Under the pieces are notes generated by a model. The model made no database searches, was not told where the DNA came from, and saw only the letters and a program-made list of their open reading frames with translations. Both the position numbers and the translations under genes were made by a program. Source: Candidatus Hydrogenedentota bacterium (GTDB taxonomy: Bacteria; Hydrogenedentota; Hydrogenedentia; Hydrogenedentales; SLHB01). Taken from it: DNA of 37,344 nt. The DNA lies in assembly GCA_012719295.1 (NCBI GenBank), contig JAAYAQ010000255.1, forward strand, positions 1-37,344. The letters run 5' to 3'. Positions 3,922 to 26,777 of the stretch are shown here, in pieces; the stretch's first letter is position 1; each line of letters begins with the position of its first letter.

Positions 3922-3961
3922 CGGGAAGACGGTTCCGGTTTTCGGAGAAATCACGCAGAGA

Positions 3962-8431: not shown

Positions 8432-11400
8432 ATGCGTCCTGTGAAGATGGTCTTCGTTGTCGGATGCGGGATTGCGCTGTTGTGGTCGTTGCAGGCGCAT
8501 TCGGCGTTCGACGCCGGGTCTCCCGCGGAGCGGCTGCGCTCGTTTAACGGAGCGGCCCTGCGTCTCGCGATTGAGGACCTGATCCGCGAATTCGGCGAGC
8601 GGTATCCCGACGGTCCGGCGTACCTTCAGGCGCTTGACCGCTACGAAATGTGGGTGCGGGAGATGCGCGATGCGGCCAGCCTCAGCGAACGCGGGGGCTT
8701 GTGGGGCTGGCATCCCAACGATCCCGCCGTGCAGGCGCGCGTGGATGAGATACTCGCGTTCCAGCGGAATGCCCTTCTCGCCAATCCACTGCTGGATTTC
8801 CGGCGGCTCCTGCTTGTCAAACGCAGCGAGGGCAATCTTGGCCTTCCCATGAATTGGGAGAGCAATTCCAGCATTTCGCGTGACGGCATCGACAACGAGC
8901 TCTGCATCCTCTCGCTTGACCATCTCGACGCGGACCCCGTGCGGCTCTTTAAACCGGAAGGGGGGCGGTTCGTAGGCGATGTGGATCTGCACTTCGACGG
9001 CGAACGCATGCTGTTGTCGATGCCCGGCGAAGACCGGCGCTGGCAGGTGTTTGAACTGGGTGTGGACGGGACCGGGTTGCGGCAGCTCCCCTTGATCGAC
9101 GAGCCGGATGTCGACAATTACGATGCGTGCTACCTTCCCGACGGGGCGCTCCTGTTCAGTTCGACGGCCTGTTTTGTTGGCGTCCCGTGCGTGACCGGGT
9201 CGTCGCATGTGTCCCATCTATTCCGGTACGAACCCGAGACCGGGGCCATCCGCCGGCTCACGTTCGAGCAGGACCACAACTGGTGCCCGGCCGTCCTCAA
9301 CAACGGCCGGGTGCTGTATCTCCGCTGGGAGTATTCGGATCTCCCGCATTTTGTGTCGCGGATTCTCTTTCACATGAACCCCGACGGCACCAATCAGGCG
9401 GAGTATTACGGCAGTAATTCCTACTGGCCCAACGGGCTGTTTTTCGCCCGGCCGGCGCCCAATCATCCCACCCTGGTTGCCGCGATCGTCAGTGGCCACC
9501 ACGACGTGCCGCGGATGGGCGAGCTGGTGCTCATCGATCCCGCCCGGGGCCGCGCACAGGCCGGCGGCGTGGTTCAACGCATCCCGGGACGGGGCCAACC
9601 GGTCGAGCCCGTCATCCGCGACGGGCTGGTGATGAACAGCTGGCCGAAGTTCCTGCATCCCTGGCCGCTGAGCGACAAATACCTCCTGGTTGCATCGAAA
9701 CCTGCCCCGGAATCGAAGTGGGGCATCTATCTCGTCGACGTGTTCGACAACATGACGCTGCTTAAAGAGATTGACGGTTACGCGCTGCTGGAGCCGTTGC
9801 CGTTGCGGCCGGCGCCGCGCCCGCCCGTCATCGCGCCGCGCGTAAACCTGGCCGATCCCGAAGCGACGGTGTATCTCACCGACGTGCACGGGGGGCCCGG
9901 TCTGGACGGCGTCCCTCGCGGCACGGTCAAGCGGTTGCGACTCTTTACGTACCATTTTGCGTACCACAACATGGGCGGCCAGGTGAACCGCGTAGGTCTC
10001 GACGGCCCCTGGGATATCAAACGTGTGCTGGGAACCGTGCCGGTGGAATCCGACGGGAGCGCGCTGTTTCGGGTCCCCGCGAACACGCCGATCTCGATTC
10101 AGCCGCTGGATGCGGAAGGCAAGGCGCTTCAGTTGATGCGGAGCTGGTTGGTGGGGATGCCGGGAGAGGTGGTTTCGTGCGCGGGCTGCCACGAACCGCA
10201 GAACGTTACCCCACCCGCCCGCAACACGCTTGCCGCCCGGCGGCCCCCCAGTCCGATCACGCCGTGGTACGGACCCACGCGCGGTTTCGCGTTCACGCGG
10301 GAAGTCCAGCCCGTGCTTGACGCCTACTGCATTGGATGTCACGACGGCCGCGAGGACCGCCCGGACTTTCGCGATGCCCCGCCGGTGCATCCGCCCGCCG
10401 GCCAGGAAGCCTATTCCACGGGTTCGAAGTTCACGCCCGCGTATCTGGCGCTTCGGGCGTATGTCCGCACGAGCACGATCGAGAGCGACATGCACCTCCT
10501 CACGCCGTGCGATTTTCACGCCGATACCTCGCGCCTGGTGCGCCTGCTGTCGAACGGGCACCATGGCGTCGAGCTCTCTCCGGAAGCCTGGGACCGGCTG
10601 ATCACGTGGATTGATCTTAATGCGCCCGCGCACGGCACGTGGCATGAAATCGTGGGCGAGGAGCTGGTCAATCACCAGCGCGACCGCCGCCGCGAACTCT
10701 TGAAACGGTATGCGGGCATTGACGAAGACCCCGAAGCGATCCGCGAGCTCCCCGTGCTGGCCGATGAACCCGCGGCCGCGCCGGTTCCGGCGGCAGCGAC
10801 TCCGGAACCGGAGGCCGCGCCGTCGGGACTGCCCGAACCGCCCCTCGCGGATGCGGCGGCCCCGGGCGCCCTCCGCGCCATCGAGCTCGCGCCGGGCATT
10901 TCCCTCGACTTGGCGTTCGTTCCGTCCGGCGCCGTCTCCCCAGGCAGCGACGCGGGCCATTCGCCGGGACGTCCCGTGCACGGCGCCGCTATCCCGCGCG
11001 GTTTCTGGATGAGCCGCCACGAAATCACCAACGAGCAATTCGCGGTATTCGAGCCGACGCACGACAGCCGCCTGGAACACGGCGATTTTCTTCAGTTCAG
11101 CGTCGAGGAGCGCGGCTACCCCCTGAACGGCCCGCAACAGCCGGTGGTGCGCGTTTCGTGGGAGGAGGCCATGCGTTTCTGCGAATGGCTGGCCCGGCGC
11201 ACGGGGGAGGCCGTCACGCTGCCGTCCGAGGCCGAATGGGAGCACGCCTGCCGCGCCGGCGCCCCGACGCCGATGTGGTATGGCGATGCCGGCGCCGATT
11301 TCGCCGCTTTCGCGAATCTTGCCGATGCCCGTTTCTCGCAGATCGACACGTTTGCCCCCTGGGACCTCCCTTCGGGTGCGCTATACCCCTACCGGCCGGC

Positions 11401-11704
11401 CATCCATGATGTGGACGACGGATTCCGCGTGTCCGCCCCGGCGGGCTCGTTCGAACCGAATCCGTGGGGCCTGTTTGATATGCACGGGAACGTGGCGGAA
11501 TGGACCCGGAGCGCCTGGAGGGCGGGACCGGGTGTCGCCGCCGGGAACGGGCGGGACGCCTCCGATTCGCTCGAAAAGCGCGTCGTGCGCGGCGGGTCGT
11601 GGTATGACCGCCCCGCCGGGGCCACGGCGGCCAGCCGGTATGCCTATCACCCCTGGCAGAAGGTCTACGACACCGGTTTTCGCGTCATCGTCTGTCCGCC
11701 CTGA
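8432..11704 (+). CDS. HzsA-related di-haem protein with C-terminal FGE fold, no N-terminal lectin module (paralogue 2)
   Basis: This is a 1090-residue exported protein. ATG 8432 follows a GGGGGG-type ribosome site, and the signal peptide ends near AHSA. It starts directly with the helical segment, then the signature NALLANPLLDFRRLLLVKR (about 113-131), the propeller (about 180-440), haem sites C583-A-G-C586-H587 and C633-I-G-C636-H637, an Ala/Pro-rich linker (about 775-815) and the FGE fold (about 828-1088). Conserved histidines after the second haem (the FHAD and NGHHG motifs, then HGTWHE) are candidate axial ligands shared with the two paralogues. At the FGE copper site it carries D1059 and A1064 instead of cysteines. 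It lies 51 bases after paralogue 1, so the two are probably co-transcribed. Lack of the LamG module is the main difference. Confidence 0.85.
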   Translation: MRPVKMVFVVGCGIALLWSLQAHSAFDAGSPAERLRSFNGAALRLAIEDLIREFGERYPDGPAYLQALDRYEMWVREMRDAASLSERGGLWGWHPNDPAVQARVDEILAFQRNALLANPLLDFRRLLLVKRSEGNLGLPMNWESNSSISRDGIDNELCILSLDHLDADPVRLFKPEGGRFVGDVDLHFDGERMLLSMPGEDRRWQVFELGVDGTGLRQLPLIDEPDVDNYDACYLPDGALLFSSTACFVGVPCVTGSSHVSHLFRYEPETGAIRRLTFEQDHNWCPAVLNNGRVLYLRWEYSDLPHFVSRILFHMNPDGTNQAEYYGSNSYWPNGLFFARPAPNHPTLVAAIVSGHHDVPRMGELVLIDPARGRAQAGGVVQRIPGRGQPVEPVIRDGLVMNSWPKFLHPWPLSDKYLLVASKPAPESKWGIYLVDVFDNMTLLKEIDGYALLEPLPLRPAPRPPVIAPRVNLADPEATVYLTDVHGGPGLDGVPRGTVKRLRLFTYHFAYHNMGGQVNRVGLDGPWDIKRVLGTVPVESDGSALFRVPANTPISIQPLDAEGKALQLMRSWLVGMPGEVVSCAGCHEPQNVTPPARNTLAARRPPSPITPWYGPTRGFAFTREVQPVLDAYCIGCHDGREDRPDFRDAPPVHPPAGQEAYSTGSKFTPAYLALRAYVRTSTIESDMHLLTPCDFHADTSRLVRLLSNGHHGVELSPEAWDRLITWIDLNAPAHGTWHEIVGEELVNHQRDRRRELLKRYAGIDEDPEAIRELPVLADEPAAAPVPAAATPEPEAAPSGLPEPPLADAAAPGALRAIELAPGISLDLAFVPSGAVSPGSDAGHSPGRPVHGAAIPRGFWMSRHEITNEQFAVFEPTHDSRLEHGDFLQFSVEERGYPLNGPQQPVVRVSWEEAMRFCEWLARRTGEAVTLPSEAEWEHACRAGAPTPMWYGDAGADFAAFANLADARFSQIDTFAPWDLPSGALYPYRPAIHDVDDGFRVSAPAGSFEPNPWGLFDMHGNVAEWTRSAWRAGPGVAAGNGRDASDSLEKRVVRGGSWYDRPAGATAASRYAYHPWQKVYDTGFRVIVCPP

Positions 11705-12498: not shown

Positions 12499-13500
12499 AT
12501 GGCAATGAAGAAGTTTATCAACGATCCCGATCACCTCGTCAACGAGCTGCTGGCGGGTTTTGTGCTGGCCAATGCGAACAAGGTGGCGCTGACAGGCAAC
12601 AATCTGGTCGTGCGGGCGCAGCCGAAACCCGCAAACAAGGTGGCCGTGGTCACGCTGGGCGGGAGCGGGCACGAACCCGCGCTGAGCGGATTTGTGGGCG
12701 AGGGCATGCTCGATATCAGCGTTCCGGGCGAGATCTTCGCCGCGCCCGGGCCTCCGCGCGTGTTCGAGGCGCTCAAATTGGCCAACCGCGACGCGGGGGC
12801 GCTGCTGGTCGTCCTGAATCACGAAGGCGATGTGATGACCGCCGGTATCGCGATGGAAATGGCCGAGAAAGAAGGCCTCAACGTGAAACAGGTTCTGACC
12901 CATGAAGACATCTCGGCGCCGTCGCGGCAGGATCCCCGGGACCGGCGCGGGCTGGTGGGCTGTTTCCCGGTAATCAAGGTGGCCGGCGCCGCCGCGGAAC
13001 AGGGCCGGCCGCTGGACGAGTGCCTCGCCATCGCCGAGCGCATGGAACGCAACATGGCCACGCTCGCGGTCGCCGTTACGGGCGCGACGCATCCCTCGAC
13101 GGGCAGCGTGATCGCGGAGGTGCCCGAGGCCGACATGATTGTCGGCATGGGCCAGCACGGGGAGGCCGGCGGGGGGCAACAGCCGCTCAAGAGCGCCGAT
13201 GAAACGGCCGCAATCATGATCGACGCCCTGTGCGAGGACTTGGGGGCGAAGGCCGGCGACCGGCTGCTCGTGATGATCAACGGGGTCGGCTCGACAACGC
13301 TCATGGAACAGTATCTGGTGCTTAACGGTGTGAAAAAGGCCCTGGATGCGAAGGGCATCGGTTTGGCGCGCGCGATCGCGGGCGAGTTTCTTACGGTGCA
13401 GGAGATGGGCGGCTTCCAGATGTTTGCCGCGAAGATGGACGACGAGCTGCTGGCCCTGTGGGACGCCCCCTGCAACACGCCGGCGCTGGTTGTGAAATAG
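12499..13500 (+). CDS. DhaK-like ketose kinase subunit (DAK1 domain)
   Basis: This is a 333-residue protein, the usual length for a stand-alone DhaK. The ribosome site AAGGGGGAGC precedes ATG 12499. The substrate loop GGSGHEP (54-60) and LDISVPGEIFAAP match DhaK, and H220 in GMGQHGEAGG corresponds to the histidine that binds the ketone covalently as a hemiaminal. The family accepts dihydroxyacetone, but homologues phosphorylate erythrulose and other short or branched ketoses, so dihydroxyacetone is not assured here. The nucleotide-binding partner is encoded 19 bases downstream. No PTS-type DhaM is visible, so ATP-dependent phosphorylation is the simpler reading. It sits between the VOC gene and the DhaL/LsrF genes in what looks like one operon. 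Confidence 0.88.
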   Translation: MAMKKFINDPDHLVNELLAGFVLANANKVALTGNNLVVRAQPKPANKVAVVTLGGSGHEPALSGFVGEGMLDISVPGEIFAAPGPPRVFEALKLANRDAGALLVVLNHEGDVMTAGIAMEMAEKEGLNVKQVLTHEDISAPSRQDPRDRRGLVGCFPVIKVAGAAAEQGRPLDECLAIAERMERNMATLAVAVTGATHPSTGSVIAEVPEADMIVGMGQHGEAGGGQQPLKSADETAAIMIDALCEDLGAKAGDRLLVMINGVGSTTLMEQYLVLNGVKKALDAKGIGLARAIAGEFLTVQEMGGFQMFAAKMDDELLALWDAPCNTPALVVK

Positions 13501-13519
13501 GCTCTGGGACGACAGAACG

Positions 13520-14155
13520 ATGGTGACCTGCGAGCGATGGGTGGCGATGGTGCGCGCGGCGGCCGGGCAGGTGCGCGCCAGCCAGGAACTGCTTTCGAAC
13601 CTGGATTCGCACGGCGGCGACGGCGATCACGGCACCACGATGGTCCGCGCCATGAACTGCATCGAGCAGGCCGTCGCGCAAGACCGGTCGTCGTCGATGC
13701 CGGACCTGTTGCGCGCCATCGGCTGGGCGGTCATGGGCGTTGACGGCGGCGCGACGGGCCCGCTTTTCGGGACGTTTTTCATGAGCATGTCGGATGCGGC
13801 GTCCGGAGACGCGGCGCTTGACGCGCGGGGGCTGGCGGCGGCGTTTGCGGCGGGTCTGGCGGGCGTACAGAAGCGTACCCGCGCCCGGGTGGGCGACAAG
13901 ACGATGCTCGATGCCCTGGTGCCGGCGGTGGAGGCCGCCCAGGCGGCCGCGGACTGCGGGGGCTCGGTCGAAGACGTGCTGCGAAGCGCGTTCGAGGCCG
14001 CCCGCGCGGGCGCGGAAGGCACGAGTGCGTTGCAGGCGCGGTTTGGCCGCGCCAAAAACATTGGCGAAAAGAGCATTGGACAACCCGACGCCGGGGCAAC
14101 CTCGGTTTCGCTCTTGTTCAAGGGGTTTTTGGAAGGAGTGACATCACATGCCTGA
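13520..14155 (+). CDS. DhaL-like ketose kinase subunit (DAK2 domain)
   Basis: This is a 211-residue helical-barrel protein that supplies ADP/ATP and magnesium to a DhaK partner. The diagnostic LDSHGGDGDHGTTM motif is present: D29, D34 and D36 align with the magnesium-binding aspartates of E. coli DhaL and H37 follows. GDKTMLDALVPA near residue 130 and the ARFGRAKNIGEKSIGQPDAGATS tail region also match the family. The ribosome site is weak (GGGACGA), so translation may be coupled to dhaK, 19 bases upstream. Its last 8 bases overlap the start of the LsrF-like gene at 14148, strong evidence for one operon. Together with the preceding gene it makes a two-subunit kinase; the true substrate is unknown. 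Confidence 0.88.
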   Translation: MVTCERWVAMVRAAAGQVRASQELLSNLDSHGGDGDHGTTMVRAMNCIEQAVAQDRSSSMPDLLRAIGWAVMGVDGGATGPLFGTFFMSMSDAASGDAALDARGLAAAFAAGLAGVQKRTRARVGDKTMLDALVPAVEAAQAAADCGGSVEDVLRSAFEAARAGAEGTSALQARFGRAKNIGEKSIGQPDAGATSVSLLFKGFLEGVTSHA

Positions 14156-15041
14156 TGCGGACAAGAAGACCGGCGACAAGGAGAAGGATTTCGGGATCGG
14201 CATTCCGCAGGAGACGCCCGGGTTTTTCCTCAAGGGCAGCGCCCATCTTGACTGGGGGATGAAACACCGGCTCGCGCGCATTTTCAATCCCAAGAGCGGG
14301 CGGACGGTCATGCTGGCGTTTGATCACGGCTACATCATGGGGCCGACGTCCGGCATTGAACGGATCGACCTCAGCATCCCCCCGCTGATTGACTACGTGG
14401 ACTGCCTGATGTGCACGCGCGGGGCCTTGCGCACCTGCATCCCGCCCGAGACCAACAAGCCGGTGGTCATGCGGTGCAGCACCGGGGCCACGGTGCTCAA
14501 GGATCTCAGCGACGAGGTGATCGGGGTGACGGTCGAAGATGCCCTGCGCATGAACGCGGCCGCGGTGACCACGCAGGTCTGCATCGGCGCGACGCACGAA
14601 CGCGAAACGCTCGAAAACCTGGCGTACCTGATCAACGAGGGCAACAACTACGGCGTTCCGACGCTCGGCGTCACCGCCGTGGGTAAGGAACTTGTGCGCG
14701 ACGCCCGGTATCTGGGCCTTGCGTGCCGGGTGGTCGCGGAACTGGGCGCGCATTTCGTGAAGACGTATTACTGCGAACCCGATTTCGAGGAAGTCGTGGC
14801 GGGATGTCCCGTCCCGATCGTGATTGCGGGCGGCAAGAAGCTCCCGGAGAAAGAGGCCCTCGAAATGGCGTACAAAGCGATCAGCCAGGGCGCCATGGGC
14901 GTGGACATGGGCCGCAACATCTTCTGCGCGGATGACCCCGTCGCGATGGTGCAGGCGGTGCGCCAGGTGGTTCACGAGAACGACACGCCGGCGAAGGCGT
15001 TTGACCTGTACGAGACCCTGAAACACGAACACGCGAAGTGA
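14148..15041 (+). CDS. LsrF-like class I aldolase/thiolase (DeoC/FbaB superfamily)
   Basis: This is a 297-residue protein. It closely resembles E. coli LsrF over its whole length: the LDWGM and RIFNPKSGRTVMLAFDHGY region, LMCTRG, VKTYY, CPVPIVIAGGKKLPE and GVDMGRNIF. K205 in HFVKTYY is in the position of the Schiff-base lysine. LsrF transfers acetyl from the phosphorylated AI-2 breakdown product 3-hydroxy-5-phosphonooxypentane-2,4-dione to CoA, giving dihydroxyacetone phosphate and acetyl-CoA. Here no LsrK, LsrR, LsrG or Lsr transporter is seen. The gene instead overlaps dhaL by 8 bases, so the phosphorylated substrate is probably made by the DhaK/DhaL-like kinase. An aldol or thiolytic cleavage of a phosphorylated ketose or diketone is the best-supported role. 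Confidence 0.88.
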   Translation: MPDADKKTGDKEKDFGIGIPQETPGFFLKGSAHLDWGMKHRLARIFNPKSGRTVMLAFDHGYIMGPTSGIERIDLSIPPLIDYVDCLMCTRGALRTCIPPETNKPVVMRCSTGATVLKDLSDEVIGVTVEDALRMNAAAVTTQVCIGATHERETLENLAYLINEGNNYGVPTLGVTAVGKELVRDARYLGLACRVVAELGAHFVKTYYCEPDFEEVVAGCPVPIVIAGGKKLPEKEALEMAYKAISQGAMGVDMGRNIFCADDPVAMVQAVRQVVHENDTPAKAFDLYETLKHEHAK

Positions 15042-15108
15042 CCGCCCCTGTGAATGAGGCCGGACGCGCAGGACGCGGTGCGCGCACCGAAGCAGGAGGA
15101 ACCGGGTG

Positions 15109-15771
15109 ATGATTCACATGACCAGGCGACAAATGATAGGCGGCGTTGTAGCCGGCGCGGCAATGTCTGCCGTTGGCGGGCGCGCACGCGCAAGCGAGGT
15201 GAACATGCTGAATAACAAGGATTTCTACAAGGCGGATGGCGGTTTTGACGCCGCGGCGGCGAAGGAAGCCTATTACGACATGATGCGGCGGTTCAATTAC
15301 CCCATCGTCGACCGGCTCAAGGGCGAGGAGTTCTGGGCGGTCGATTTTGGTCTGGGTAAGTTTACCGAAGTGGGTATGGCGGGCATTTTCTGGCTGAATG
15401 TCAAGGAGCACGACTTTTTCGGCCACGAGATCTATCTGTTGCCCGGCCAGATGATCCCCGAACACCGTCATCTGAAGACCGAGGAGGCGCGGCCGAAAAT
15501 GGAAGGCTGGCACACCCGTCATGGCTTTGTCTGGACGTACGGCGAAGGCGAACCCAATCCGGGAGACGTCGAGCGCATTCCGCCCAGTCACCGCGATATC
15601 GCCAAGGCCCGGCGCGCCCTCAAACTGATGCCCGGCGAGGTGACCTGGCTGCCCGTGGCTGAACAGTGGCATTCCATGCTGGCGGGGCCCGAGGGCGCCA
15701 TCGTGACCGAGTATGCGTCGTACCACGACAACGCCGCCCTTCGGTTCACGATTCCGAACGCGAAACTGTAG
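15109..15771 (+). CDS. Tat-exported D-lyxose-isomerase-like cupin protein
   Basis: This is a 220-residue protein. ATG 15109 has AGGAGG nine bases upstream (15094-15099); GTG 15106 and ATG 15118 are alternatives. The N-terminus is a twin-arginine signal (MTRRQMIGGVVAGAA, ending ARAS). The body fits the D-lyxose ketol-isomerase cupin family: HEIYLLPGQMIPEHRH, then KTEEARPKMEGWHTRHG, and WLPVAEQWHSM near the end, giving a set of His/Glu residues for a divalent metal. Family enzymes interconvert lyxose and xylulose in the cytoplasm, so a Tat-exported version is odd and its substrate may differ. It lies 67 bases after the LsrF-like gene and before the third giant paralogue, linking cassette and secreted proteins. 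Confidence 0.75.
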   Translation: MIHMTRRQMIGGVVAGAAMSAVGGRARASEVNMLNNKDFYKADGGFDAAAAKEAYYDMMRRFNYPIVDRLKGEEFWAVDFGLGKFTEVGMAGIFWLNVKEHDFFGHEIYLLPGQMIPEHRHLKTEEARPKMEGWHTRHGFVWTYGEGEPNPGDVERIPPSHRDIAKARRALKLMPGEVTWLPVAEQWHSMLAGPEGAIVTEYASYHDNAALRFTIPNAKL

Positions 15772-15902: not shown

Positions 15903-18900
15903 GTGAGCCCTTTCCAAACCAATGCCCTGCGGATGGGTGTGTTTCTGACGTGCCTGGCTTGTGCGGTTGCGGCCGCGGCTGCGGCCGGCGAAGGCGGCGG
16001 CTCCCTGTATGTGAAGCACGAGACCTGGTCCGCGACCATGACCGCCGCGCGGCAGGCGTTCCAGGCCGCCGGGAATGACCCGGCTCTCGAGATCGGGCCG
16101 TGGCATACGACCGGCGCGTTGAAGGCGGACGGCTTTGCCCACGCGCTGTTCCCCGAGCAGGGGGTCGATCTGCAGGCGAAAACCGCCGACGGCAAACCGC
16201 TCTGGACGCCGCAACCGGACTGGAAAGACGGCGGGGTCATCAATCTGCCCGGCGGCGACTCGCAGTCGACGTATCTGTTCCGCACCATCCAGGCGGCCGG
16301 CCCCGTCACATTGACGGCCAGTTTTGGAAGCGACGACGGTCTCGAGGTCTGGTTCAACGGCGAGAAGGCCGTTTCGACGGACGTGCCGCGGGTGGCCGCT
16401 CCCAATCAGGATCGGACGGCCCTCTCGTTGAAACCGGGGGAGAACCGCCTGCTCCTGAAGATTTACAACCGGAGCGGTGGGCATGCGTTCTTTTTTGCGC
16501 TCGCCGACCAGCGGCTCGATGCGATCTGGCGCCAGATGGCCGCCGATTTCCCGCGCCAGGCCCGGTGGTTTGAGCAGAGTGTCGGAGGCGACGGCGTGAT
16601 GGCCTGGTTCCGTCTCACTTCGACCGCGGCCGAGGAGCGCATCGTCACGGACGCGTTGGACCGCCTGGACGGTCTGGCCGACGGGCTTAAGAACGAATTG
16701 GGCGCGCTGAAAGCGGAAGCGGCGTCCGCCCATGACTCGCGCTGGCTGACCCTGTTCGAGCGCGCGCGTCTTGCCTCCGACAACGTGGATCTCCTGAACA
16801 GAGTCAACCTGGCGGCGGTACGGCGCGCGGTCGACGACCTGCGGACGGCCTACCCCGGCCAGTACCCCAATGGCCCGGCGCTGGCCGAGCGCATTGCCGC
16901 GCTGGAGGCGACGGTCCAGCAGGCACGCCAGGCCCTGCTCGAAGCCCGGCCCGGCGCGGAGAACGCCCTCGGCGAGGCGGCCGTTCAGGCGGCCGCGTTG
17001 CAGCGCGAAGCCCTGCTGGCCAATCCGCTGCTCGATTTTGACCGGCTGCTTCTCATTAAACGCGCGGAAGGCAACCTGGGCCTGCCGCAGAACTGGCAGG
17101 GCAACTGCGCGGTAGCGCGCGCGGGCTACGACAACGAGATCTGCGTGATGAGCCCGGTGGCTCCCGACGGCGCCCTGAGCACGTTCTTCAAGCCCGAGGG
17201 TTCGCGGTTCGTGGGCGATGTGGATCTGCATTTCGACGGCAGCAAGATGCTGGTATCCATGCCCGGGTCTCATGACCGCTGGCAGATCTGGGAACTGGGC
17301 GCCGACGGTTCCGGGCTGCGCCAGGTGACGCCGGGCGCGTATCCGGATGTCGACAACTACGATGCGTGTTATCTGCCCGACGGCCGGATCGTGTTCGCGT
17401 CCACCCGGTGCTTCCAGGGGATTCCCTGCGTGGCGGGGTCGGATGCCGTGGCCAACCTGTGCATCATGCATCCCGACGGCACGGGCATCCGCATGCTCTG
17501 TTTTGATCAGGACCACAACTGGTGCCCGACCGTGCTCAACAACGGCCGGGTCCTGTTTTCCCGGTGGGAATACTCGGATACGCCCCACTACTTCTCGCGC
17601 CTGCTGTTCCACATGAATCCGGACGGCACCAATCAGATGGAGTATTACGGCAGCAACTCGTTCTGGCCAAACTCGATTTTCTATGCCCGGCCGATACCGG
17701 GCCACCCGACCAAGGTCGTTGCCATTGTTTCCGGCCATCACGGCGTGGCCCGCATGGGCGAGCTCACGGTATTCGACCCCGCCGTGGGACGGCGCGAGGC
17801 GGATGGCGCGGTGCAGCGCATCCCCGGCTACGGCGAGTCCGTCGATCCGGTCATTGCCGACCAGCTTGTTGCGGATTCCTGGCCGAAATTCCTGCACCCG
17901 TATCCCCTGAACGACAAGTATTTTCTCGTGTCGTGCAAACCGTCCCCCGAGGCCCTGTGGGGGATCTATCTCGCCGACATCTTTGACAACCTGGTGCTGC
18001 TCAAGGAGGAGCCCGGATTCGCGCTGCTGGAGCCGGTGCCCTTCCGGGCCACGCCGGCGCCGCCCGCGATCCCGGACAAGGTGCGCCTTAATTCGAAGGA
18101 GGCCACGGTCTATCTCGCGGACATCTACGAGGGGGACGGGCTGAAAGACATCCCGCGCGGGACCGTCAAGAAACTCCGGCTCTATGCCATGCACTATACC
18201 TACAATAAAATGGGCGGGCACATGCACATCGGGGTGGAAGGCCCCTGGGACGTGCACCGCATTCTCGGCACCGTGCCCGTGTTCGAAGACGGGTCGGCGG
18301 TGTTCACCGTGCCCGCGAATACCCCGATTGCGGTGCAGCCGCTCGACGAGCGGGGCCGCGCGCTGCAGGTCATGCGGAGCTGGTTCACGGCGATGCCGGG
18401 CGAGGTCCTGTCCTGCGTTGGCTGCCACGAACAACAGAACATGGGGCCGCCTGTAACGCGGAGCCTGGCCTCGCGCACGCCGCCGGTGGCGATTGAACCG
18501 TGGTATGGGCCCGCGCGCGGGTTCAGTTTCAAGCGCGACGTTCAACCGGCGCTGGACCAGTTCTGCGTGGGCTGTCATCAGGGACAGGAAGGGCGTCCCG
18601 ATTTCGCCCGCAAAGACGAGAACGGGTGGAACAACTTCACGCCCGCGTATTTGGCGCTGCACCCCTACGTCCGGCGGCCCGGGCCCGAGAGCGACTACCA
18701 TCTGGCGATGCCGATGGAATGGCACGCGGGCACGAGCGAGCTCGTTCAGATGCTCGAAAAAGGCCATTTCGGCGTAAAACCGGACGCGGAGGCGTGGGAC
18801 CGGCTCTTCACGTGGATCGATCTCAACGTGCCCGATCACGGGACGTGGCATGAACAGCAGCCCATTCCTAACAATTTCGACAAGCGCCGGGACTACATGC

Positions 18901-19973
18901 TGGCCACGTACGCCAATCGCACGGACGATTTTGAGGCCATCCCCGAGGGTCTCGGCGCTCCGCGCGCGTTCGTCGCGCCCGAACCGGCGGCCGTGAAGCA
19001 GAGCGCCGCGGTGCGCGTCGAGGGCTGGCCGTTCTCGAGCGAAGCGGCGCTGGCCCTGCAGCGCGCCGCGGCAGGCGCCGTGACCGCGGCCGACGCGGCC
19101 GGCGAACCGCAGCGTAAGACCGTCGAGCTTGGCGACGGGGTGACGATGGACTTCGTGCTCATCCCCGCGGGGGACTATGTAATGGGTAGCGGGGCCGGGG
19201 CGCTGGACGAACAGCCTCCGTGCACAGTGACCATAGACCAGCCTTTCTGGATGGGCGTCACCGAGGTGTCGAACGCTCAGTTCGCGCGTTTCAACCCCGA
19301 GCATGATACGGGGACCATCGATCAGCACAACAAAGACCACACCCGGCCGGGATACGCCGCCAACCTGCCCGGCCAGCCCGCGGCGCGGGTCTCTTGGGAT
19401 GAAGCGATGGCGTTCTGCGAGTGGCTGAGCGGCCATGCCGGCCTTGCCTGCACCCTGCCAACCGAGGCGCAATGGGAGTGGGCGTGCCGGGCCGGTTCGG
19501 ATGCCCCGTTCTTCTATGGCGGGATGGATGCGGATTTCTCGGCGTTTGCCAATCTTGCCGACCAGTCGATCAAACTGCTGGCTGTTGCGGGAATCGATCC
19601 TCAACCCATTCCCAACCCCAGCGCGTACGAGGATTTTCTGCCGAAAGACGCCCGCTTCAACGACGGCGAGCGCATCGTGACCGGCGTGGGCCGGTATCAG
19701 CCCAATCCCTGGGGATTGATGGACATGCACGGCAACGTGGCGGAATGGACCCGCACCTCGTTCGCCGCGTATCCGTACTCGGAAGATGGCCGTAACGAGC
19801 CGGCGTCGCGCGCGGACAAAGTGGTCCGCGGCGGCTCCTGGCTGGATCGGCCTCACCGGGCTACGGCGTCTTTCCGGCTGGCGTACAAGCCGTATCAGAA
19901 GGTGTTTAACGTGGGTTTTCGCGTGATCATGCCCGTAGACGCGCAGAATCCCGTCAATATCGCACGGAACTAG
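15903..19973 (+). CDS. HzsA-related di-haem protein with N-terminal PA14/galactose-binding-like module and C-terminal FGE fold (paralogue 3)
   Basis: This is a 1356-residue exported protein. Start chosen at GTG 15903 (AAGAGGA at 15885-15891); ATG 15933 is the alternative, and either gives an Ala-rich signal peptide. Residues about 35-200 form a beta-sandwich of the PA14/galactose-binding type (FGSDDGLEVWFNGEKAV, LKPGENRLLLKIYN), different from the LamG of paralogue 1. Then follow the signature EALLANPLLDFDRLLLIKR (about 369-387), the propeller, haem sites C838-V-G-C841-H842 and C888-V-G-C891-H892, conserved histidines (MEWHAG, KGHFG, HGTWHE) and the FGE fold (about 1087-1350) with RGGSW at 1309-1313. 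Copper-site cysteines are replaced by D1315 and A1320. Predicted periplasmic or surface redox protein. The propeller/di-haem peroxidase gene follows after 278 bases. Confidence 0.85.
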   Translation: MSPFQTNALRMGVFLTCLACAVAAAAAAGEGGGSLYVKHETWSATMTAARQAFQAAGNDPALEIGPWHTTGALKADGFAHALFPEQGVDLQAKTADGKPLWTPQPDWKDGGVINLPGGDSQSTYLFRTIQAAGPVTLTASFGSDDGLEVWFNGEKAVSTDVPRVAAPNQDRTALSLKPGENRLLLKIYNRSGGHAFFFALADQRLDAIWRQMAADFPRQARWFEQSVGGDGVMAWFRLTSTAAEERIVTDALDRLDGLADGLKNELGALKAEAASAHDSRWLTLFERARLASDNVDLLNRVNLAAVRRAVDDLRTAYPGQYPNGPALAERIAALEATVQQARQALLEARPGAENALGEAAVQAAALQREALLANPLLDFDRLLLIKRAEGNLGLPQNWQGNCAVARAGYDNEICVMSPVAPDGALSTFFKPEGSRFVGDVDLHFDGSKMLVSMPGSHDRWQIWELGADGSGLRQVTPGAYPDVDNYDACYLPDGRIVFASTRCFQGIPCVAGSDAVANLCIMHPDGTGIRMLCFDQDHNWCPTVLNNGRVLFSRWEYSDTPHYFSRLLFHMNPDGTNQMEYYGSNSFWPNSIFYARPIPGHPTKVVAIVSGHHGVARMGELTVFDPAVGRREADGAVQRIPGYGESVDPVIADQLVADSWPKFLHPYPLNDKYFLVSCKPSPEALWGIYLADIFDNLVLLKEEPGFALLEPVPFRATPAPPAIPDKVRLNSKEATVYLADIYEGDGLKDIPRGTVKKLRLYAMHYTYNKMGGHMHIGVEGPWDVHRILGTVPVFEDGSAVFTVPANTPIAVQPLDERGRALQVMRSWFTAMPGEVLSCVGCHEQQNMGPPVTRSLASRTPPVAIEPWYGPARGFSFKRDVQPALDQFCVGCHQGQEGRPDFARKDENGWNNFTPAYLALHPYVRRPGPESDYHLAMPMEWHAGTSELVQMLEKGHFGVKPDAEAWDRLFTWIDLNVPDHGTWHEQQPIPNNFDKRRDYMLATYANRTDDFEAIPEGLGAPRAFVAPEPAAVKQSAAVRVEGWPFSSEAALALQRAAAGAVTAADAAGEPQRKTVELGDGVTMDFVLIPAGDYVMGSGAGALDEQPPCTVTIDQPFWMGVTEVSNAQFARFNPEHDTGTIDQHNKDHTRPGYAANLPGQPAARVSWDEAMAFCEWLSGHAGLACTLPTEAQWEWACRAGSDAPFFYGGMDADFSAFANLADQSIKLLAVAGIDPQPIPNPSAYEDFLPKDARFNDGERIVTGVGRYQPNPWGLMDMHGNVAEWTRTSFAAYPYSEDGRNEPASRADKVVRGGSWLDRPHRATASFRLAYKPYQKVFNVGFRVIMPVDAQNPVNIARN

Positions 19974-20251: not shown

Positions 20252-22093
20252 ATGTGGAATGCGGCAATCTGGCGCCGCGGGTTTGCGATCGTACTGCTGA
20301 TGGCGGGAATCCTGGCCGGCAGCGCTTCGGCGCAGCACTACTTGTCGCCGTTGTCGCTGGCGCTGAGTCCGGAGCAGACCTCCCTGTACGTCGCCGCGCA
20401 CACGGGCAATCAGATCGTGGTGCTGGGACTGGCGGACCAATCCGTCGCGTCGACGATTCCGTTGCCCGGCGCGCCGGGGGGCCTGTGCGTATCCGCTGAC
20501 GGAACCGCGCTTTACGTGACCATTGAAGCGCCCGAAGGGGCGCTGCTGGTCGTGAACCGTGCGGATGGGGCGATCCGGGCGCGCGTTCCCATGGGACATG
20601 CCCCGGTGGCGCCGGTTGCGAGCGCCGACGGGAAGTTCGTGTATGTGTGCAACCGTTTCGACAACCAGGTGGCCGTGATTGACGCGGCCGCCAACGCGGA
20701 GGTGGCCCGGGTTTCGGTCAATCGCGAACCGGTTGCCGCGGCCCTGACACCGGACGGGAAATGGCTCTGCGTGGCCAACCATCTTCCGGCGGGCGCGTCT
20801 GACGGGGACTACGTCTCCTCGTGTGTTTCGATGATCGATACGGCGGCGCGCAGCGTGGCCGCGACCATCGTTCTGCCCAACGGCAGCACCGGCCTGCGCG
20901 GGATGGCCATGTCGCCGGACGGGGCCTATGCCTATGTGACGCACATTCTCGGGCGATACCAGCTTCCCACCACGCAGCTCGAGCGCGGCTGGATGAACAC
21001 CAACGCGCTGAGCATCATCGATGTCGCCGGCCAGAAACTGTTGAATACGGTCCTGCTCGATGACGTGGACCTGGGCGCCGCCAACCCGTGGGGGGCTCAG
21101 GTGAGCGCCGACGGCGCCTACCTGTGCATCTGCCACGCCGGCACCCAGGAAATCAGCGTGATCGACCGGGCGGCGTTGCACGACAAACTGGCCCGGGTCG
21201 CGGCCGGCGAGCCGGTGTCTGAAGTGTCGCGTACCTCCGAGGACGTGCCGAACGACCTGGCATTCCTGGTGGGCATGCGCCGTCGCATCAAGCTGACCGG
21301 CAATGGCCCCCGCGGGATCGCCATCGCGGGCACGAAAGTCTATGCCGCCGAGTATTTCACCGACAGCATCGGCGTGGTGGACGTGAATCCCGAGGCGCGT
21401 CCGCGCGCGGCGTCCATCGCGCTGGGGCCCGGCCAGGAACTGTCGGTCGCGCGCAAAGGCGAGATGCTGTTCAACGATGCCGCCCTGTGCTTTCAGAACT
21501 GGCAGAGTTGCGCGAGCTGCCATCCCGACATGCGCGCCGATGGCCTGAACTGGGACCTGCTCAACGACGGCATGGGCAACCCCAAAAACACCAAGAGCCT
21601 GTTTCTGTCGCATCAGACGCCGCCCGTGATGGTGTCCGGCGTGCGCGACAAGGCCGAAACCGCGGTCCGGTCGGGTATCCGCTACATCCAGTTCGCTGTC
21701 CGGCCGGAGGACGATGCCGTTGCGATTGACGAATACGCGAAGACGGTGACGGCCGTGCCCAGCCCGTATCTGGTAAACGGCACGCTGAGTGAATCCGCCA
21801 AACGCGGTGAAGCCCTGTTCCAGCAGGCGGGGTGCGCGACCTGTCATCCCGCGCCTCTGTATACCGATCTCCAGGCCTACAGCGTCGGCACCGGCAAGGA
21901 CCGCGAGGCCGACATGAAATTCGACACGCCGACCCTCGTCGAAGTATGGCGCACGGCCCCGTATCTGCACGACGGCCGCGCCGCCACCATGCTCGACATG
22001 CTGAAGAGCGAGGCTTCGGGGGCGCAGCATTGCCCCTCCGGCCTGACGGAGGAGCAGCTCGCCGATCTTGCCGCCTATGTCCTGTCGCTGTAA
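20252..22093 (+). CDS. Exported YVTN beta-propeller fused to a di-haem cytochrome c peroxidase/MauG-like domain
   Basis: This is a 613-residue protein. AAGGGGGA precedes ATG 20252, and the signal peptide ends GSASA before QHYL. Residues about 30-395 are repeated propeller blades of the YVTN type (VAAHTGNQIVVLG, VCVSADGTALYV-like units, VYVCNRFDNQVAVID, AYAYVTH). The C-terminal part has two c-haem sites, C420-A-S-C423-H424 and C528-A-T-C531-H532. Around them lie FQNWQSCASCHPD, TPPVMVSGVRDKAET and TPTLVEVWRTAPYLHDGRA, typical of bacterial di-haem peroxidase/MauG relatives. Hydrazine synthase has a propeller beta subunit and a CCP-like di-haem gamma subunit, which this fusion would combine. Generic propeller-peroxidase proteins are also common in planctomycetes, so the partnership with the HzsA-like paralogues is inference from context. 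Confidence 0.85.
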   Translation: MWNAAIWRRGFAIVLLMAGILAGSASAQHYLSPLSLALSPEQTSLYVAAHTGNQIVVLGLADQSVASTIPLPGAPGGLCVSADGTALYVTIEAPEGALLVVNRADGAIRARVPMGHAPVAPVASADGKFVYVCNRFDNQVAVIDAAANAEVARVSVNREPVAAALTPDGKWLCVANHLPAGASDGDYVSSCVSMIDTAARSVAATIVLPNGSTGLRGMAMSPDGAYAYVTHILGRYQLPTTQLERGWMNTNALSIIDVAGQKLLNTVLLDDVDLGAANPWGAQVSADGAYLCICHAGTQEISVIDRAALHDKLARVAAGEPVSEVSRTSEDVPNDLAFLVGMRRRIKLTGNGPRGIAIAGTKVYAAEYFTDSIGVVDVNPEARPRAASIALGPGQELSVARKGEMLFNDAALCFQNWQSCASCHPDMRADGLNWDLLNDGMGNPKNTKSLFLSHQTPPVMVSGVRDKAETAVRSGIRYIQFAVRPEDDAVAIDEYAKTVTAVPSPYLVNGTLSESAKRGEALFQQAGCATCHPAPLYTDLQAYSVGTGKDREADMKFDTPTLVEVWRTAPYLHDGRAATMLDMLKSEASGAQHCPSGLTEEQLADLAAYVLSL

Positions 22094-22204: not shown

Positions 22205-23326
22205 ATGAAGGACGACAACGTGAGTTTGAGACAAGAGAACAGCATCCAGACCCGAATTGTCCAGCGGACCGGTTACCAGGAACTGTTTATTACCGCCGCG
22301 CCCCAGCCCGGACAGGACCTGGGCGCGTTGTTGCTCGAGGTGTTTCAGGCGGTCGATGAGCGCCGCGCCTCGGTCGTTTCACACGAGATTTTCGGGGTGT
22401 CCCGTGCAGCGGGCGATGCCGCGTTCCTGCAGCTGGCCGCCGAACGCGGCGAGCCGGTATGGCCGGTGCTCTGGATATCGGAAGGGGCGGATGCGGAACC
22501 GCCCGCCGTGGCCGTTCAGGTGTGGGCCGTAACCGGGCTCGAGGTCAGCCCCGTGCGCTGCAACGGCCGGATCATCGGCGTGCGGTACGAAGACGAAAGC
22601 GCCGAATACTGCCGTCTCGGGGGGATCCTTCCCGGCGACGTGTCCGTGGCCGAAGGCGTGCAGGCGATGTCCGTTTTCGAGCAGATGGAGGCCGGGCTCG
22701 AGACCGTCGGCATGAATTTTCACGACGTGCTGCGCACGTGGTTTTACAACGACCGGATCACGGCGTGGTACCCGCAGTTCAACCAGGCCCGCGACACCAT
22801 GTTCAAGCGGTGGCGGGTATTCGACGGGCTGGTGCCTGCGAGCACGGCCGTTGGCGGCGCGAATGCGTTCGGCGCGGCCCTCACCGGCGGGCTGATTGCG
22901 GTCAAGGCCAAGACGGACGCCGTGCAACGGCGGCCTCTGCCTTCGCCGCTGCAGTGCCCCGCCCTGGATTACGGCAGTTCGTTCAGCCGCGCGGTGGAAT
23001 TCGAGACGGAGGACCACCGCCGCGTCTACATTTCCGGCACCGCCAGCATCGCCCCCGAGGGCCATACGGTGTTTATTGACGACATTGAAGGCCAGATCGC
23101 CCGGACAATGGAGGTGATCGGCGCCATTCTCGAGTCCCGCGGCATGGCCTGGAAGGACGTCTGTCGCGGCATCGCCTATTTCAAGGATCCGCGGAACCTC
23201 GGGCTCTTTCCGAAGTACTGCGAGGCCCAGGGCATCTCCGACCTCCCCCTGGCGCAGGTGAAAGACGACATCTGCCGCGATGACCTCCTGTTTGAGGTCG
23301 AACTCGACGCGATTGTGGCAAAATAG
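22205..23326 (+). CDS. Multi-lobed RidA/YjgF-fold protein (chorismatase-like architecture)
   Basis: This is a 373-residue cytoplasmic protein. ATG 22205 was chosen because GAGGCGG lies just upstream; GTG 22181 is an alternative. The C-terminal about 110 residues form a clear RidA lobe (VYISGTASIAPEGHTVF, then GQIARTMEVIGAILESRGMAWKDVCRGIAYFKD). The middle carries a second such lobe (MSVFEQMEAGLETVGMNFHDVLRTWFYND, later YPQFNQARDTMF), and the N-terminus resembles a worn first lobe. RidA proteins hydrolyse enamine/imine intermediates; the related FkbO/Hyg5 proteins hydrolyse chorismate and share a two-lobe plan. I cannot assign the reaction. It lies 111 bases after the propeller/di-haem gene and 57 before the SMP-30-like gene, on the same strand. 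Confidence 0.65.
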   Translation: MKDDNVSLRQENSIQTRIVQRTGYQELFITAAPQPGQDLGALLLEVFQAVDERRASVVSHEIFGVSRAAGDAAFLQLAAERGEPVWPVLWISEGADAEPPAVAVQVWAVTGLEVSPVRCNGRIIGVRYEDESAEYCRLGGILPGDVSVAEGVQAMSVFEQMEAGLETVGMNFHDVLRTWFYNDRITAWYPQFNQARDTMFKRWRVFDGLVPASTAVGGANAFGAALTGGLIAVKAKTDAVQRRPLPSPLQCPALDYGSSFSRAVEFETEDHRRVYISGTASIAPEGHTVFIDDIEGQIARTMEVIGAILESRGMAWKDVCRGIAYFKDPRNLGLFPKYCEAQGISDLPLAQVKDDICRDDLLFEVELDAIVAK

Positions 23327-23383: not shown

Positions 23384-24283
23384 ATGTTGAACCGGGCTGT
23401 GCGCTACCTGAGCGTGGCAATCCTTGCAACGGGATCCGTGCTCGCTGCCGAAGAGACGGGACCGATCGCGTGGCGTCTTGAGCCGGTGAAGTCCATCAAG
23501 GGCTGCAAAGTGCCGGAGTGCGTAGTGGTCGACGCCGAGAATGCCCTGGCCTACATTTCCAACATCGAGGCGCTCCCCGACGAATACTGGTCCGACGATG
23601 GGCGGGGATTCATCTCCCTGATGACGGCCGACGGCAAGATGCTCAAGCGGCGCTGGCTCAACAGCACGCCCGACGCGGTCATCCATGGCCCCAAGGGCAT
23701 GTGCATTCTCCAGGACGTGCTCTATTTCGCCGACAACAGCCGCCTGCTGCGCCGCCCCCTCCAGCCCGGGGGCCAGGTGGAGCCGCTTCCGGTGCCGGAG
23801 GCGGAACGGATCAATGACCTGGCCACCGACGGAACGCACATCTTCGCCAGCGATACCACGCGCGGCGTCATCTACAAAGTGGACCCCGCGACCAGCGAGG
23901 TGGCGGTGCTGAAATCGCCGCCGTCCGTCAACGGAATCACGTTTCACCAGGGCGCGTTTTTTGCGGTGAGCTGGGATCAGCACGACATTTTTGAACTCGA
24001 CCCCGCGGGGGAAACCGACCCGGTTCCGTTCGGTCTTGGGGCGCACTTCACCCATCTGGACGGCATTGAGGTGCTCGACGACGGGACGTTTATCGTGTCG
24101 GATTTTGACGGCAACAAGCTCTGGGCCGTGGGTTCCGACCGCAAGGCCATTGCCCCCCTCGCAGACGTGGAGACGCCCGCCGACATCGGGCTCGACCGCA
24201 AGCGGATGCTTCTCTACGTTCCCCTGTTCATGAAGGACGAGGTGGCCATCTTCCGGCTCACGAAGGATTCGCCCGCGAAGTGA
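23384..24283 (+). CDS. Secreted SMP-30/gluconolactonase-like beta-propeller protein
   Basis: This is a 299-residue protein. ATG 23384 is supported by GGAGGA seven bases upstream (23371-23376); GTG 23369 would spoil the signal peptide. The signal peptide runs MLNRAVRYLSVAILATGSVLA. The body is a six-bladed propeller of the SMP-30/NHL type: PECVVVDAENALAYISN, INDLATDGTHIFASDT, VNGITFHQGAFFAVSW, HLDGIEVLDDGTFIVSDFDG and ADIGLDRKRMLLYVP. The N/D pattern matches calcium-binding lactonase relatives, but sugar-lactone hydrolysis is not assured because many such propellers are only binding proteins. Last gene of the plus block; its end is 9 bases from the end of cydB on the other strand, and I see no terminator between them. 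Confidence 0.75.
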   Translation: MLNRAVRYLSVAILATGSVLAAEETGPIAWRLEPVKSIKGCKVPECVVVDAENALAYISNIEALPDEYWSDDGRGFISLMTADGKMLKRRWLNSTPDAVIHGPKGMCILQDVLYFADNSRLLRRPLQPGGQVEPLPVPEAERINDLATDGTHIFASDTTRGVIYKVDPATSEVAVLKSPPSVNGITFHQGAFFAVSWDQHDIFELDPAGETDPVPFGLGAHFTHLDGIEVLDDGTFIVSDFDGNKLWAVGSDRKAIAPLADVETPADIGLDRKRMLLYVPLFMKDEVAIFRLTKDSPAK

Positions 24284-24292
24284 TGCCGCGGT

Positions 24293-25318
24293 TCAGTAGG
24301 TCATTTTGCCCACTTGGACCTTACCGCGGAATACCCAGTAGATGACGCTCGTGTAGGCCAGCACGAACGGCATGCCCAGGATCGCGATGGTGAGCATGAT
24401 CTTCAGGGTTTTTGCCGACGAGGCGGCGTTGTAGACGTCCAGATTGAACGCGGGATCGATGTTCGAGAGCACCAGATTCGGCCACAGCGTGATGCCCAGA
24501 AGGCCATTGAACGCCGCGATGGCCACCGCCGACGACACGAACGCCGCCAGGAGCCGGTTCTTCGAGAGCGAACGCGGAATGTTTACGATGGCCAGCACGC
24601 TGACAGCGACGGCGGCCCACGCCGCGGGATGCGCCCGGAAATTGTCGAGCGCATGGCCAAGCTTCGCGAGCGTATAGAGCGTTACCGCGAGGTAAGTCAC
24701 GAGGAAGAAGGTGAAGGTCTTCGCGGCCCACCCGCGCACCCGCTGCTGAAGCTCCCCTTCCGTCTTGAGACACAGGTAGAGGTTGCCGTGCATCGTGAAC
24801 ATCGCCAACGCGAACACGCCGACCAGCAACTGATACGGTCCCAGCAAATCGAAAAACGTCCCCACGTACTCGATATTGCCGTTGACCTCTTTGACGGGGA
24901 TGCCGGTCATCGCGTTGCCGACGGCCACTCCGAACAGGAGCGTGGCGACGGCGCTGCCGAGGGCGAATGCCCAGTCCCAGAAACTCCGCCAGGCGGGATG
25001 GTCAAGTTTGCTGCGGAGTTCGAGCGAAATGGCCCGGAAGATCAGGGCGTAGAGGAGCAGCATGAACGCGGTGTAAAACCCCGAAAACACCGTGGCATAG
25101 ACTTCCGGGAACGCCGCGAACATGGCGCCGCCAAACGTGACGAGCCAGACTTCGTTTCCGTCCCAGAACGGCCCGATCGAATTGAGCAGCACCCGGCGGT
25201 CGCGGTCGTTGCGCACGAACGGGTGCAGGATGCCCACGCCCAGGTCGAACCCGTCGAGGATGGCGTATCCTGCAAGCAGGATACCCAGCAGGAAAAACCA
25301 GATCGTGTTGAGGTCCAT
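24293..25318 (-). CDS. cydB: Cytochrome bd ubiquinol oxidase subunit II
   Basis: This is a 341-residue membrane protein with eight or nine hydrophobic segments. Start at ATG 25318, with GGAGGAAGGG upstream inside the 3' end of cydA; the gap after cydA is 4 bases, so translation is coupled. The N-terminus LNTIWFFLLGILLAGYAILDGFDLGVG and the following FVRNDRDRRVLLNSIGPFWDGNEVWL are the CydB family signatures. CydB supports the quinol oxidase CydA and has no haem ligands of its own in the classical enzyme. The complex reduces oxygen to water with quinol electrons at high oxygen affinity in the cytoplasmic membrane. No cydDC exporter genes are in the window. The frame stays open upstream of the ATG through cydA, but that extension is an overlap artefact. 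Confidence 0.95.
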   Translation of the reverse strand: MDLNTIWFFLLGILLAGYAILDGFDLGVGILHPFVRNDRDRRVLLNSIGPFWDGNEVWLVTFGGAMFAAFPEVYATVFSGFYTAFMLLLYALIFRAISLELRSKLDHPAWRSFWDWAFALGSAVATLLFGVAVGNAMTGIPVKEVNGNIEYVGTFFDLLGPYQLLVGVFALAMFTMHGNLYLCLKTEGELQQRVRGWAAKTFTFFLVTYLAVTLYTLAKLGHALDNFRAHPAAWAAVAVSVLAIVNIPRSLSKNRLLAAFVSSAVAIAAFNGLLGITLWPNLVLSNIDPAFNLDVYNAASSAKTLKIMLTIAILGMPFVLAYTSVIYWVFRGKVQVGKMTY

Positions 25319-25322
25319 GCGC

Positions 25323-26777
<1,455 letters not shown>

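Follow-up and report, generated by a model that had tools for sequence, protein, structure and literature searches.

A chorismatase-like three-lobed Rid protein encoded beside hydrazine-synthase-like cytochrome genes in Hydrogenedentota

Chorismatases are single-chain proteins built of three lobes. According to PMC7170507, four subfamilies of these enzymes have been named, the chorismate methylene group receives a proton from Glu-334 in Hyg5, and production was lost in Nat-hyg5 when its equivalent residue, Glu-325, was changed. As for the RidA family, PMC4433059 describes that imine hydrolysis depends on an arginine and that fusions of three RidA domains (3x-RidA) exist. A third described system comprises the homologues of hydrazine synthase (HZS) alpha and beta-gamma found outside anammox bacteria, which fall into four clades and are devoid of key residues, as stated in PMC12758564. 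The gene analysed here touches all three systems, and what is new is its setting, in which a chorismatase-like protein is encoded within cytochrome operons.

The gene and its three-lobed product

The window, that is, the whole analysed stretch of 37,344 nucleotides from a Candidatus Hydrogenedentota bacterium, contains a reading frame that starts with ATG at 22205, whose stop codon ends at 23326, and whose translation is free of internal stops (Table 1). A congeneric genome encodes a protein of equal length that is 93% identical and has the same neighbours, and many further genomes of the phylum contain nearly full-length homologues at 38-52% identity, so that the frame is considered a gene and not a chance frame. 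It is present in one copy in the window's genome and will be referred to as the Rid gene. In a crude hydropathy test on 80 relatives, none exceeded 2.0 (Kyte-Doolittle) over a stretch of 15 residues at the N-terminus, and the 373-residue product is probably cytoplasmic.

Table 1. Positions of the Rid gene, its lobes, selected codons and neighbouring genes in the window
Feature	Coordinates	Strand	Remarks
Hydrazine synthase alpha-like cytochrome with fused FGE-sulfatase domain	15933..19973	+	two CXXCH; start codon inferred
Hydrazine synthase beta-gamma-like partner	20252..22093	+	beta-propeller, two CXXCH haem sites, hydrophobic signal-like N-terminus
Chorismatase-like three-lobed Rid protein	22205..23326	+	373 aa; no evident signal peptide, probably cytoplasmic
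Lobe 1, degenerate Rid-type (residues 14-121)	22244..22567	+	conserved residues almost absent
Lobe 2 (residues 122-236)	22568..22912	+	conserved R177, T178, W179, Y189, R196, P211-A212-S213-T214
Lobe 3 (residues 237-373), recognisable L-PSP/RidA lobe	22913..23323	+	conserved F260, R262, S277-G278-T279-A280, Q297, C357, R358, E364
Codon of G278	23036..23038	+	aligned with Gly of Hyg5 (by offset, Nat-hyg5 Gly-231); Ala in FkbO
Codon of C357	23273..23275	+	aligned with Cys of Hyg5 5ag3 (Ser in 5a3k); Ala in FkbO
Codon of E364	23294..23296	+	counterpart of the catalytic Glu: Hyg5 Glu-334, FkbO E338 (printed alignment)
Downstream gene	23384..24283	+	signal-like N-terminus

A preliminary description of this locus had proposed a RidA-fold chain with a clear C-terminal lobe, a second lobe in the middle and a weak one at the N-terminus, and the structure prediction agrees with this layout. 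AlphaFold2, provided with an alignment of 70 sequences (A2, the window protein plus 69 of the 80 related loci), modelled the whole 373-residue chain with a mean pLDDT of 95.4 and a pTM of 0.93, and the Rid order of strands and helices recurred three times in the predicted secondary structure, at about residues 14-121, 122-236 and 237-373. The C-terminal lobe was recognised by the Pfam Ribonuc_L-PSP model (PF01042) at an E-value of 5.7e-12, above the curated cut-off (46.1 bits against a gathering score of 27.3), and it contained, at 260-331, the better of the two stretches of the chain that passed an E-value of 1 with this model. The middle lobe was weak by sequence, with Pfam FkbO_Hyg5-like_N at 24.8 bits, under the cut-off of 27, but clear by structure, with PA5083 (9bjy_A) matching residues 114-234 at Z 15.9; the profile comparison of lobes 2 and 3 resulted in a probability of 88 and an E-value of 2.8e-6, over only 38 aligned columns.

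Lobe 1 is the most diverged, and no relation to lobes 2 and 3 was detectable by profile comparison. Folded alone from 69 sequences, it reached a pLDDT of 94.7 and displayed Rid topology, in the order strand-strand-helix-strand-helix-strand-strand. Its top matches were the middle lobe of a chorismatase (5a3k, Z 9.5) and then Rid proteins (Z 8-9), and other folds were nearly as good (HypE, Z 8.5; PurM-type chains, Z 8.0); Foldseek returned no match for the lone lobe at an E-value of 0.001 or better. In the full model, lobe 1 lies inside the range aligned to Hyg5 (residues 21-370). The opposite arrangement, one Rid lobe joined to an unrelated N-terminal half, was also considered and was not found: the whole-chain model, the Hyg5 superposition and the fold of the lone lobe speak against it, with the caveat that PurM and HypE are near-equal matches for lobe 1. 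The protein is best called a chain of three lobes, the first of which would be a degenerate Rid-type lobe on the strength, mainly, of the whole-chain superposition.

The nearest structures to the model were chorismatases, which occupied all of the top seven chains in Foldseek (E 5.6e-19 to 4.6e-16), with single RidA-type chains at 1.1e-7 and weaker. A second aligner gave Z 32.1 for 5ag3 (rmsd 2.7, 301 residues), 31.8 for 5a3k and 30.9 over 303 residues for FkbO (4bps), against at most 18.0 among the RidA-type chains listed, the latter value being that of RutC on the C-terminal lobe. Both 5ag3 and 5a3k, whose entry titles read chorismatase, are taken here to be Hyg5. The same ranking emerged from the profile search, in which Hyg5 was found at 7.7e-25, FkbO at 1.3e-22 and the best Rid-family chain at 3.1e-13. 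The NCBIfam FkbO/Hyg5 model TIGR04444 reached 39.7 bits (E 3.4e-10) against a cut-off of 325 bits, and three relatives obtained 43.7-61.9 bits; since the three-lobed chorismatase fold is present and this cut-off is missed, the protein has the chorismatase plan without being a member of the family as curated. In a maximum-likelihood tree of residues 121-370 from 46 sequences picked by hand, the family, its paralogues and a divergent Pseudomonadota sequence (L165) split from the known chorismatases with a support of 97, and the order within the family was weakly supported in many places. The preliminary description had likened the protein to FkbO-type chorismatases as products of a similar evolutionary route; the kinship stands, but the notion of a merely parallel route does not, for sequence, structure and active-site residues place the protein in the chorismatase lineage itself.

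Conserved residues of the putative active site

Conservation was evaluated in A2 and in A1, a 38-sequence alignment that includes seven divergent paralogues at 22-27% identity. Lobe 1 had 1 column out of 108 that was constant in at least 90% of the rows of A2, lobe 2 had 21 out of 115 and lobe 3 had 40 out of 137. Because conservation is confined to lobes 2 and 3 (61 columns against 1 in lobe 1), a single working site is likely, which fits the early suggestion that a single chain of concatenated lobes may form a trimer-like barrel with only one or two such sites.

The chorismatase catalytic residues, the inspection of which had been recommended at the outset, proved to be kept as E364, C357 and G278, together with many pocket residues. 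These three positions and R358 were invariant in both alignments (38 of 38 rows in A1 and 70 of 70 in A2). The comparison set consisted of eight chorismatases, namely Hyg5, FkbO and six from Pseudomonadota (L159-L164), the latter obtained by a PF21168 search that had matches in 8 of 349 genomes; the other two matches, L165 and L166, were left out of this set. Among the residues common to the window protein and all eight were R177, W179, Y189, R196, A212, G217, Y256, F260, R262, A263, S277, T279, A280, Q297, Y325, R358 and E364. Regarding the residue trio of CH-II chorismatases (Gly 164, Gly 231 and Cys 318 in Nat-hyg5), the last two have their equivalents in G278 and C357. For Gly-164, located solely by offset, the window protein shows A215; alanine is also found in its 93% identical relative and in the six Pseudomonadota chorismatases, and glycine in 68 of the 70 rows of A2.

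Every one of the 70 rows of A2 departs from the eight chorismatases at five positions that do not vary among these enzymes, with N180 replaced by F, L, I, M, Y or C, A213, N247 and P258 by S, and H286 by G. In A1, S213 and G286 were found in 38 of 38 rows, S258 in 33 and S247 in 31 (with Asn in one row), and N180 in no row. As these replacements are branch-wide, the substrate or the product may differ from those of the known enzymes, and a new hydrolase activity, raised in the preliminary description, is plausible given that several positions constant in the compared known enzymes are changed. The same fold and site could accordingly serve a hydrolase acting on an enol-ether, an enamine or a similar reactive product of the periplasmic oxidation performed by the neighbouring cytochrome module, with a copy tuned to each module type. 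This possibility, which we regard as serious yet somewhat improbable, is favoured by the five replacements and by the separate, well-supported tree branch, and it is disfavoured by the unchanged state of the catalytic Glu, Cys and Gly of Hyg5; the genomic evidence that bears on it is presented below.

L165 itself carries I180, S213, N247, P258 and A286, and is intermediate between the known chorismatases and the window protein's family in tree position as well as in pocket residues. L166 is a member of this family, derived from the genome behind locus L155 and labelled Gammaproteobacteria.

The arginine of RidA (Arg105 in E. coli) was searched for lobe by lobe and was present in none of the lobes of the 373-residue protein, lobes 1 and 2 being placed by motif. 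In lobe 3 the alignments put either L349 or A350 at its position; in lobe 2 this position falls within P211-A212-S213 and in lobe 1 within W86-P87-V88-L89. Across the family, columns 89, 213, 349 and 350 contain arginine in no more than single rows. A covalently linked RidA trimer working as an imine or enamine deaminase would agree with the Pfam L-PSP match and with the 3x-RidA fusions mentioned in PMC4433059; the missing arginine led us to rule out this activity, chorismatases also match far better, and we consider the reading extremely improbable.

Gene setting in Hydrogenedentota and beyond

The Rid gene directly follows a gene that, among the NCBIfam models, best matched the hydrazine synthase beta-gamma fusion, with 160 bits (E 5.1e-47; cut-off 1250 bits), and that, at an E-value of 1e-10, occurs once in the genome. 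Both upstream cytochrome partners begin with hydrophobic, signal-like stretches, as judged by eye, and the Rid protein is devoid of one. Homologues of the downstream gene likewise follow the Rid gene in four relatives (L059, L064, L072 and L076). The window harbors three HZS alpha-like cytochromes, each with an FGE-sulfatase fusion (the one in Table 1 and those at 3794-8380 and 8432-11704), and 13 matches to the HZS alpha domain were counted in the genome. Upstream of the cytochrome genes, at 12499-15041, lie both halves of a dihydroxyacetone kinase (Dak1 and Dak2) and a DeoC/LacD-type aldolase, a block found again upstream in L059, L063 and L071 and partly in L064 and L066; the neighbour at 15106-15771 had no Pfam match. 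On the opposite strand, two genes resembling cytochrome bd quinol oxidase subunits (24293-26777, named from sequence) converge on the cluster.

The linkage was quantified in 68 Hydrogenedentota genomes, of which 35 were counted as carriers of the Rid gene: 34 with matches at an E-value of 4.5e-67 or better, plus G004, whose contig of 3204 bases ends no more than 6 bases beyond the partial match. Intermediate matches in G021 and G026, six matches of a paralogue branch and weak or partial RidA-like matches were left out of this count. All 35 carriers presented an HZS-beta-gamma-like gene at an E-value of 1e-40 or better, which in 34 of them was located upstream on the same contig and strand, at most 306 bases from the Rid gene; 28 genomes had neither gene (Fisher p 2.4e-14, kinship ignored). 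Five genomes harbored HZS-beta-gamma without the Rid gene, and three of these were judgeable (G026, G052 and G053), since the contig ends 185 bases after HZS-beta-gamma in G018 and inside the gene in G060. G026 carries a divergent Rid gene some 5 kb on from HZS-beta-gamma, and in G052 and G053 no Rid gene was seen in flanks of 749 bases and 6.9 kb, respectively, each of these two genomes having a paralogue-branch gene elsewhere. The Rid gene is tightly linked, in genetic terms, to the exported hydrazine-synthase-like cytochrome pair.

A scan of genome contigs revealed at least 548 relatives, and neighbourhoods were compared in the best 80, a sample biased toward the window type as these were chosen as the best matches to the window query. 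HZS-beta-gamma was directly upstream in 32 of these 80 loci (20 of the 67 loci not taken as Hydrogenedentota), and a module of DUF1549/1553, DUF1501 and a third large protein in 15. HZS alpha or beta-gamma stood elsewhere in the locus in seven, a Phycisphaerae UbiA/RluB neighbourhood was found in seven, an amidohydrolase neighbourhood in five and ResB/CcsA only in two; L147 formed a class of its own, and 11 loci presented none of these. The module names rest on one scanned member per cluster, and the third large protein of the DUF1549/1553-DUF1501 module had no Pfam match. In 13 of these 15 loci the module and the Rid gene share a strand, with the module first, and in L112 and L156 the module is on the opposite strand. 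The order DUF1549/1553, DUF1501, third protein, Rid was also observed in four of seven examined loci of the distant paralogue branch (L049, L050, L052 and L055; not in L051, L053 and L054), so that two divergent Rid branches stand in the same gene order. L155, on a contig labelled Gammaproteobacteria, has neighbours that cluster with those of the Kiritimatiellales locus L133, perhaps owing to a binning error. Ten further neighbours, most from loci without a recurrent partner, revealed no additional common theme, nor did a pooled Pfam scan of 90 neighbouring ORFs among the 25 commonest of 141 families.

One genome, G055, possesses one gene of each Rid branch, each beside its own module type. 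Such an arrangement points to one enzyme per particular module, and it counts against a general chorismatase, which would not need one copy per module. The dedicated copies, together with the sugar-metabolism genes (Dak1, Dak2 and LacD) upstream in the window and in some relatives, would also suit a hydrolase for another product of the module.

Pointing back to chorismate, and away from such another substrate, are genes of the pathway that supplies it. In five loci (L118, L126, L140, L141 and L144) the gene immediately preceding HZS-beta-gamma encodes DAHP synthase, and in L147 an EPSP synthase gene is directly upstream of the Rid gene, with DAHP synthase 8 kb downstream. Five of the six DAHP synthases were scanned, all above the TIGR01361 cut-off, and that of L141 was assigned by 69% identity; DAHP and EPSP synthase queries found no further copies in the fetched loci. 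As the operons represent one related set (5 of 80) plus one locus, and may reflect one or two events, the support is moderate. Two chorismate synthase genes are present in the window's genome, a fact of little weight when taken alone; the second (contig C344, L167 6559-9236) has a neighbour that resembles EPSP synthase (named from sequence), and no link between this second gene and the Rid gene was seen.

ResB and/or CcsA homologues, involved with cytochrome c maturation, are found no farther than 0.9 kb from the Rid gene in seven of the 80 loci (L110, L126, L134, L138, L140, L141 and L144). This proximity and the frequent link to c-type cytochromes would be in keeping with a non-catalytic binding or assembly protein that kept its pocket, such as a cytochrome c maturation helper or a sensor for some ligand resembling chorismate. 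We deem this role unlikely, as the catalytic residues are invariant even in paralogues at 22-27% identity, which is not expected without catalysis.

Two further candidates were set aside. Ubiquinone-type use, suggested by UbiA-like genes in the seven Phycisphaerae loci, was not supported: the one such gene scanned, that of L121, is of the decaprenyl-phosphate phosphoribosyltransferase type, and the next gene, as scanned in L125, is a pseudouridine synthase. A part in the anammox hydrazine synthase was discarded because, among 392 Planctomycetota genomes, HZS alpha exceeded its cut-off in 27 and the Rid family (E 1e-30) was found in 34, with no genome having both. In the open-licence literature, no report was found that joins chorismatase with hydrazine synthase, Hydrogenedentes with hydrazine synthase, or RidA with Planctomycetes, cytochrome, gene cluster and chorismate.

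Proposed role and comparison with known systems

The explanation we prefer, to which we give about an even chance as a whole, is that of a cytoplasmic chorismatase-type enzyme dedicated to periplasmic cytochrome modules. The protein would be a single-chain, cytoplasmic pseudo-trimer of Rid-type lobes and an undescribed branch of the chorismatase lineage. The fold, the retained catalytic residues and the gene linkage are computational results, and the reaction that we infer would take place at a single active site between lobes 2 and 3. There, in the manner of Glu-334 in Hyg5, E364 would protonate the methylene of a substrate of the enol-ether (enolpyruvyl) type, and carboxylates may be held and the ring chemistry steered by R358 and C357 together with the arginines conserved in lobes 2 and 3. 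The substrate would most likely be chorismate or a close relative, presumably converted into pyruvate and an aromatic or cyclohexadiene acid, and the enzyme would serve one particular periplasmic cytochrome module. Arguing against this dedicated chorismatase-type enzyme are the five replaced positions, the TIGR04444 score far below the cut-off, the small set of loci with DAHP synthase, the separate copy for each module and the five HZS-beta-gamma carriers without the Rid gene, three of them judgeable.

A bolder version, which we hold to be rather doubtful, is that the family adds another kind to the four chorismatase subfamilies already named, is widespread among Planctomycetota, Verrucomicrobiota, Hydrogenedentota and their relatives, and makes a chorismate-derived aromatic needed by the hydrazine-synthase-like and DUF1549/DUF1501 cytochrome modules. 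If this were true, these large orphan cytochrome systems would depend on a dedicated aromatic cofactor or quinone route. Both kinds of module recur in uncultured bacteria, and to our knowledge no function has been assigned to either. As a soluble enzyme of one chain, with an active site that can be recognised, the protein that accompanies both would offer a practical handle, since its substrate would reveal the chemistry of the modules. It would likewise carry the chorismatase lineage well outside the secondary metabolism from which it is known.

Among the described systems, Hyg5, a CH-II chorismatase that acts as 3-hydroxybenzoate synthase, shares with the window protein the fold, the catalytic Glu, Cys and Gly and many pocket residues. 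The two differ in overall sequence (about 20% identity), in the N, A, N, P and H at positions 180, 213, 247, 258 and 286, all replaced here, in A215, where Hyg5 has glycine, and in the cytochrome operon that surrounds the present gene. FkbO (4bps), a CH-I chorismatase, has the fold and the catalytic Glu in common with it, but carries alanine at the positions of G278 and C357, and the same five positions are replaced. With the RidA/YjgF/UK114 family, the protein shares the Rid topology of each lobe, the third being recognised by Pfam, whereas it has no RidA arginine, its lobes are far diverged and its conservation suggests one site instead of three. The 3x-RidA tandem fusions contain three recognisable RidA domains, unlike the present chain, whose first lobe is undetectable by profile. 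Finally, both upstream partners, one alpha-like and the other a fused beta-gamma-like protein, are of the kind described for HZS homologues outside anammox bacteria in PMC12758564, in whose text the words RidA and endoribonuclease do not appear; compared with the homologues covered there, the window's alpha-like protein additionally bears an FGE-sulfatase domain.
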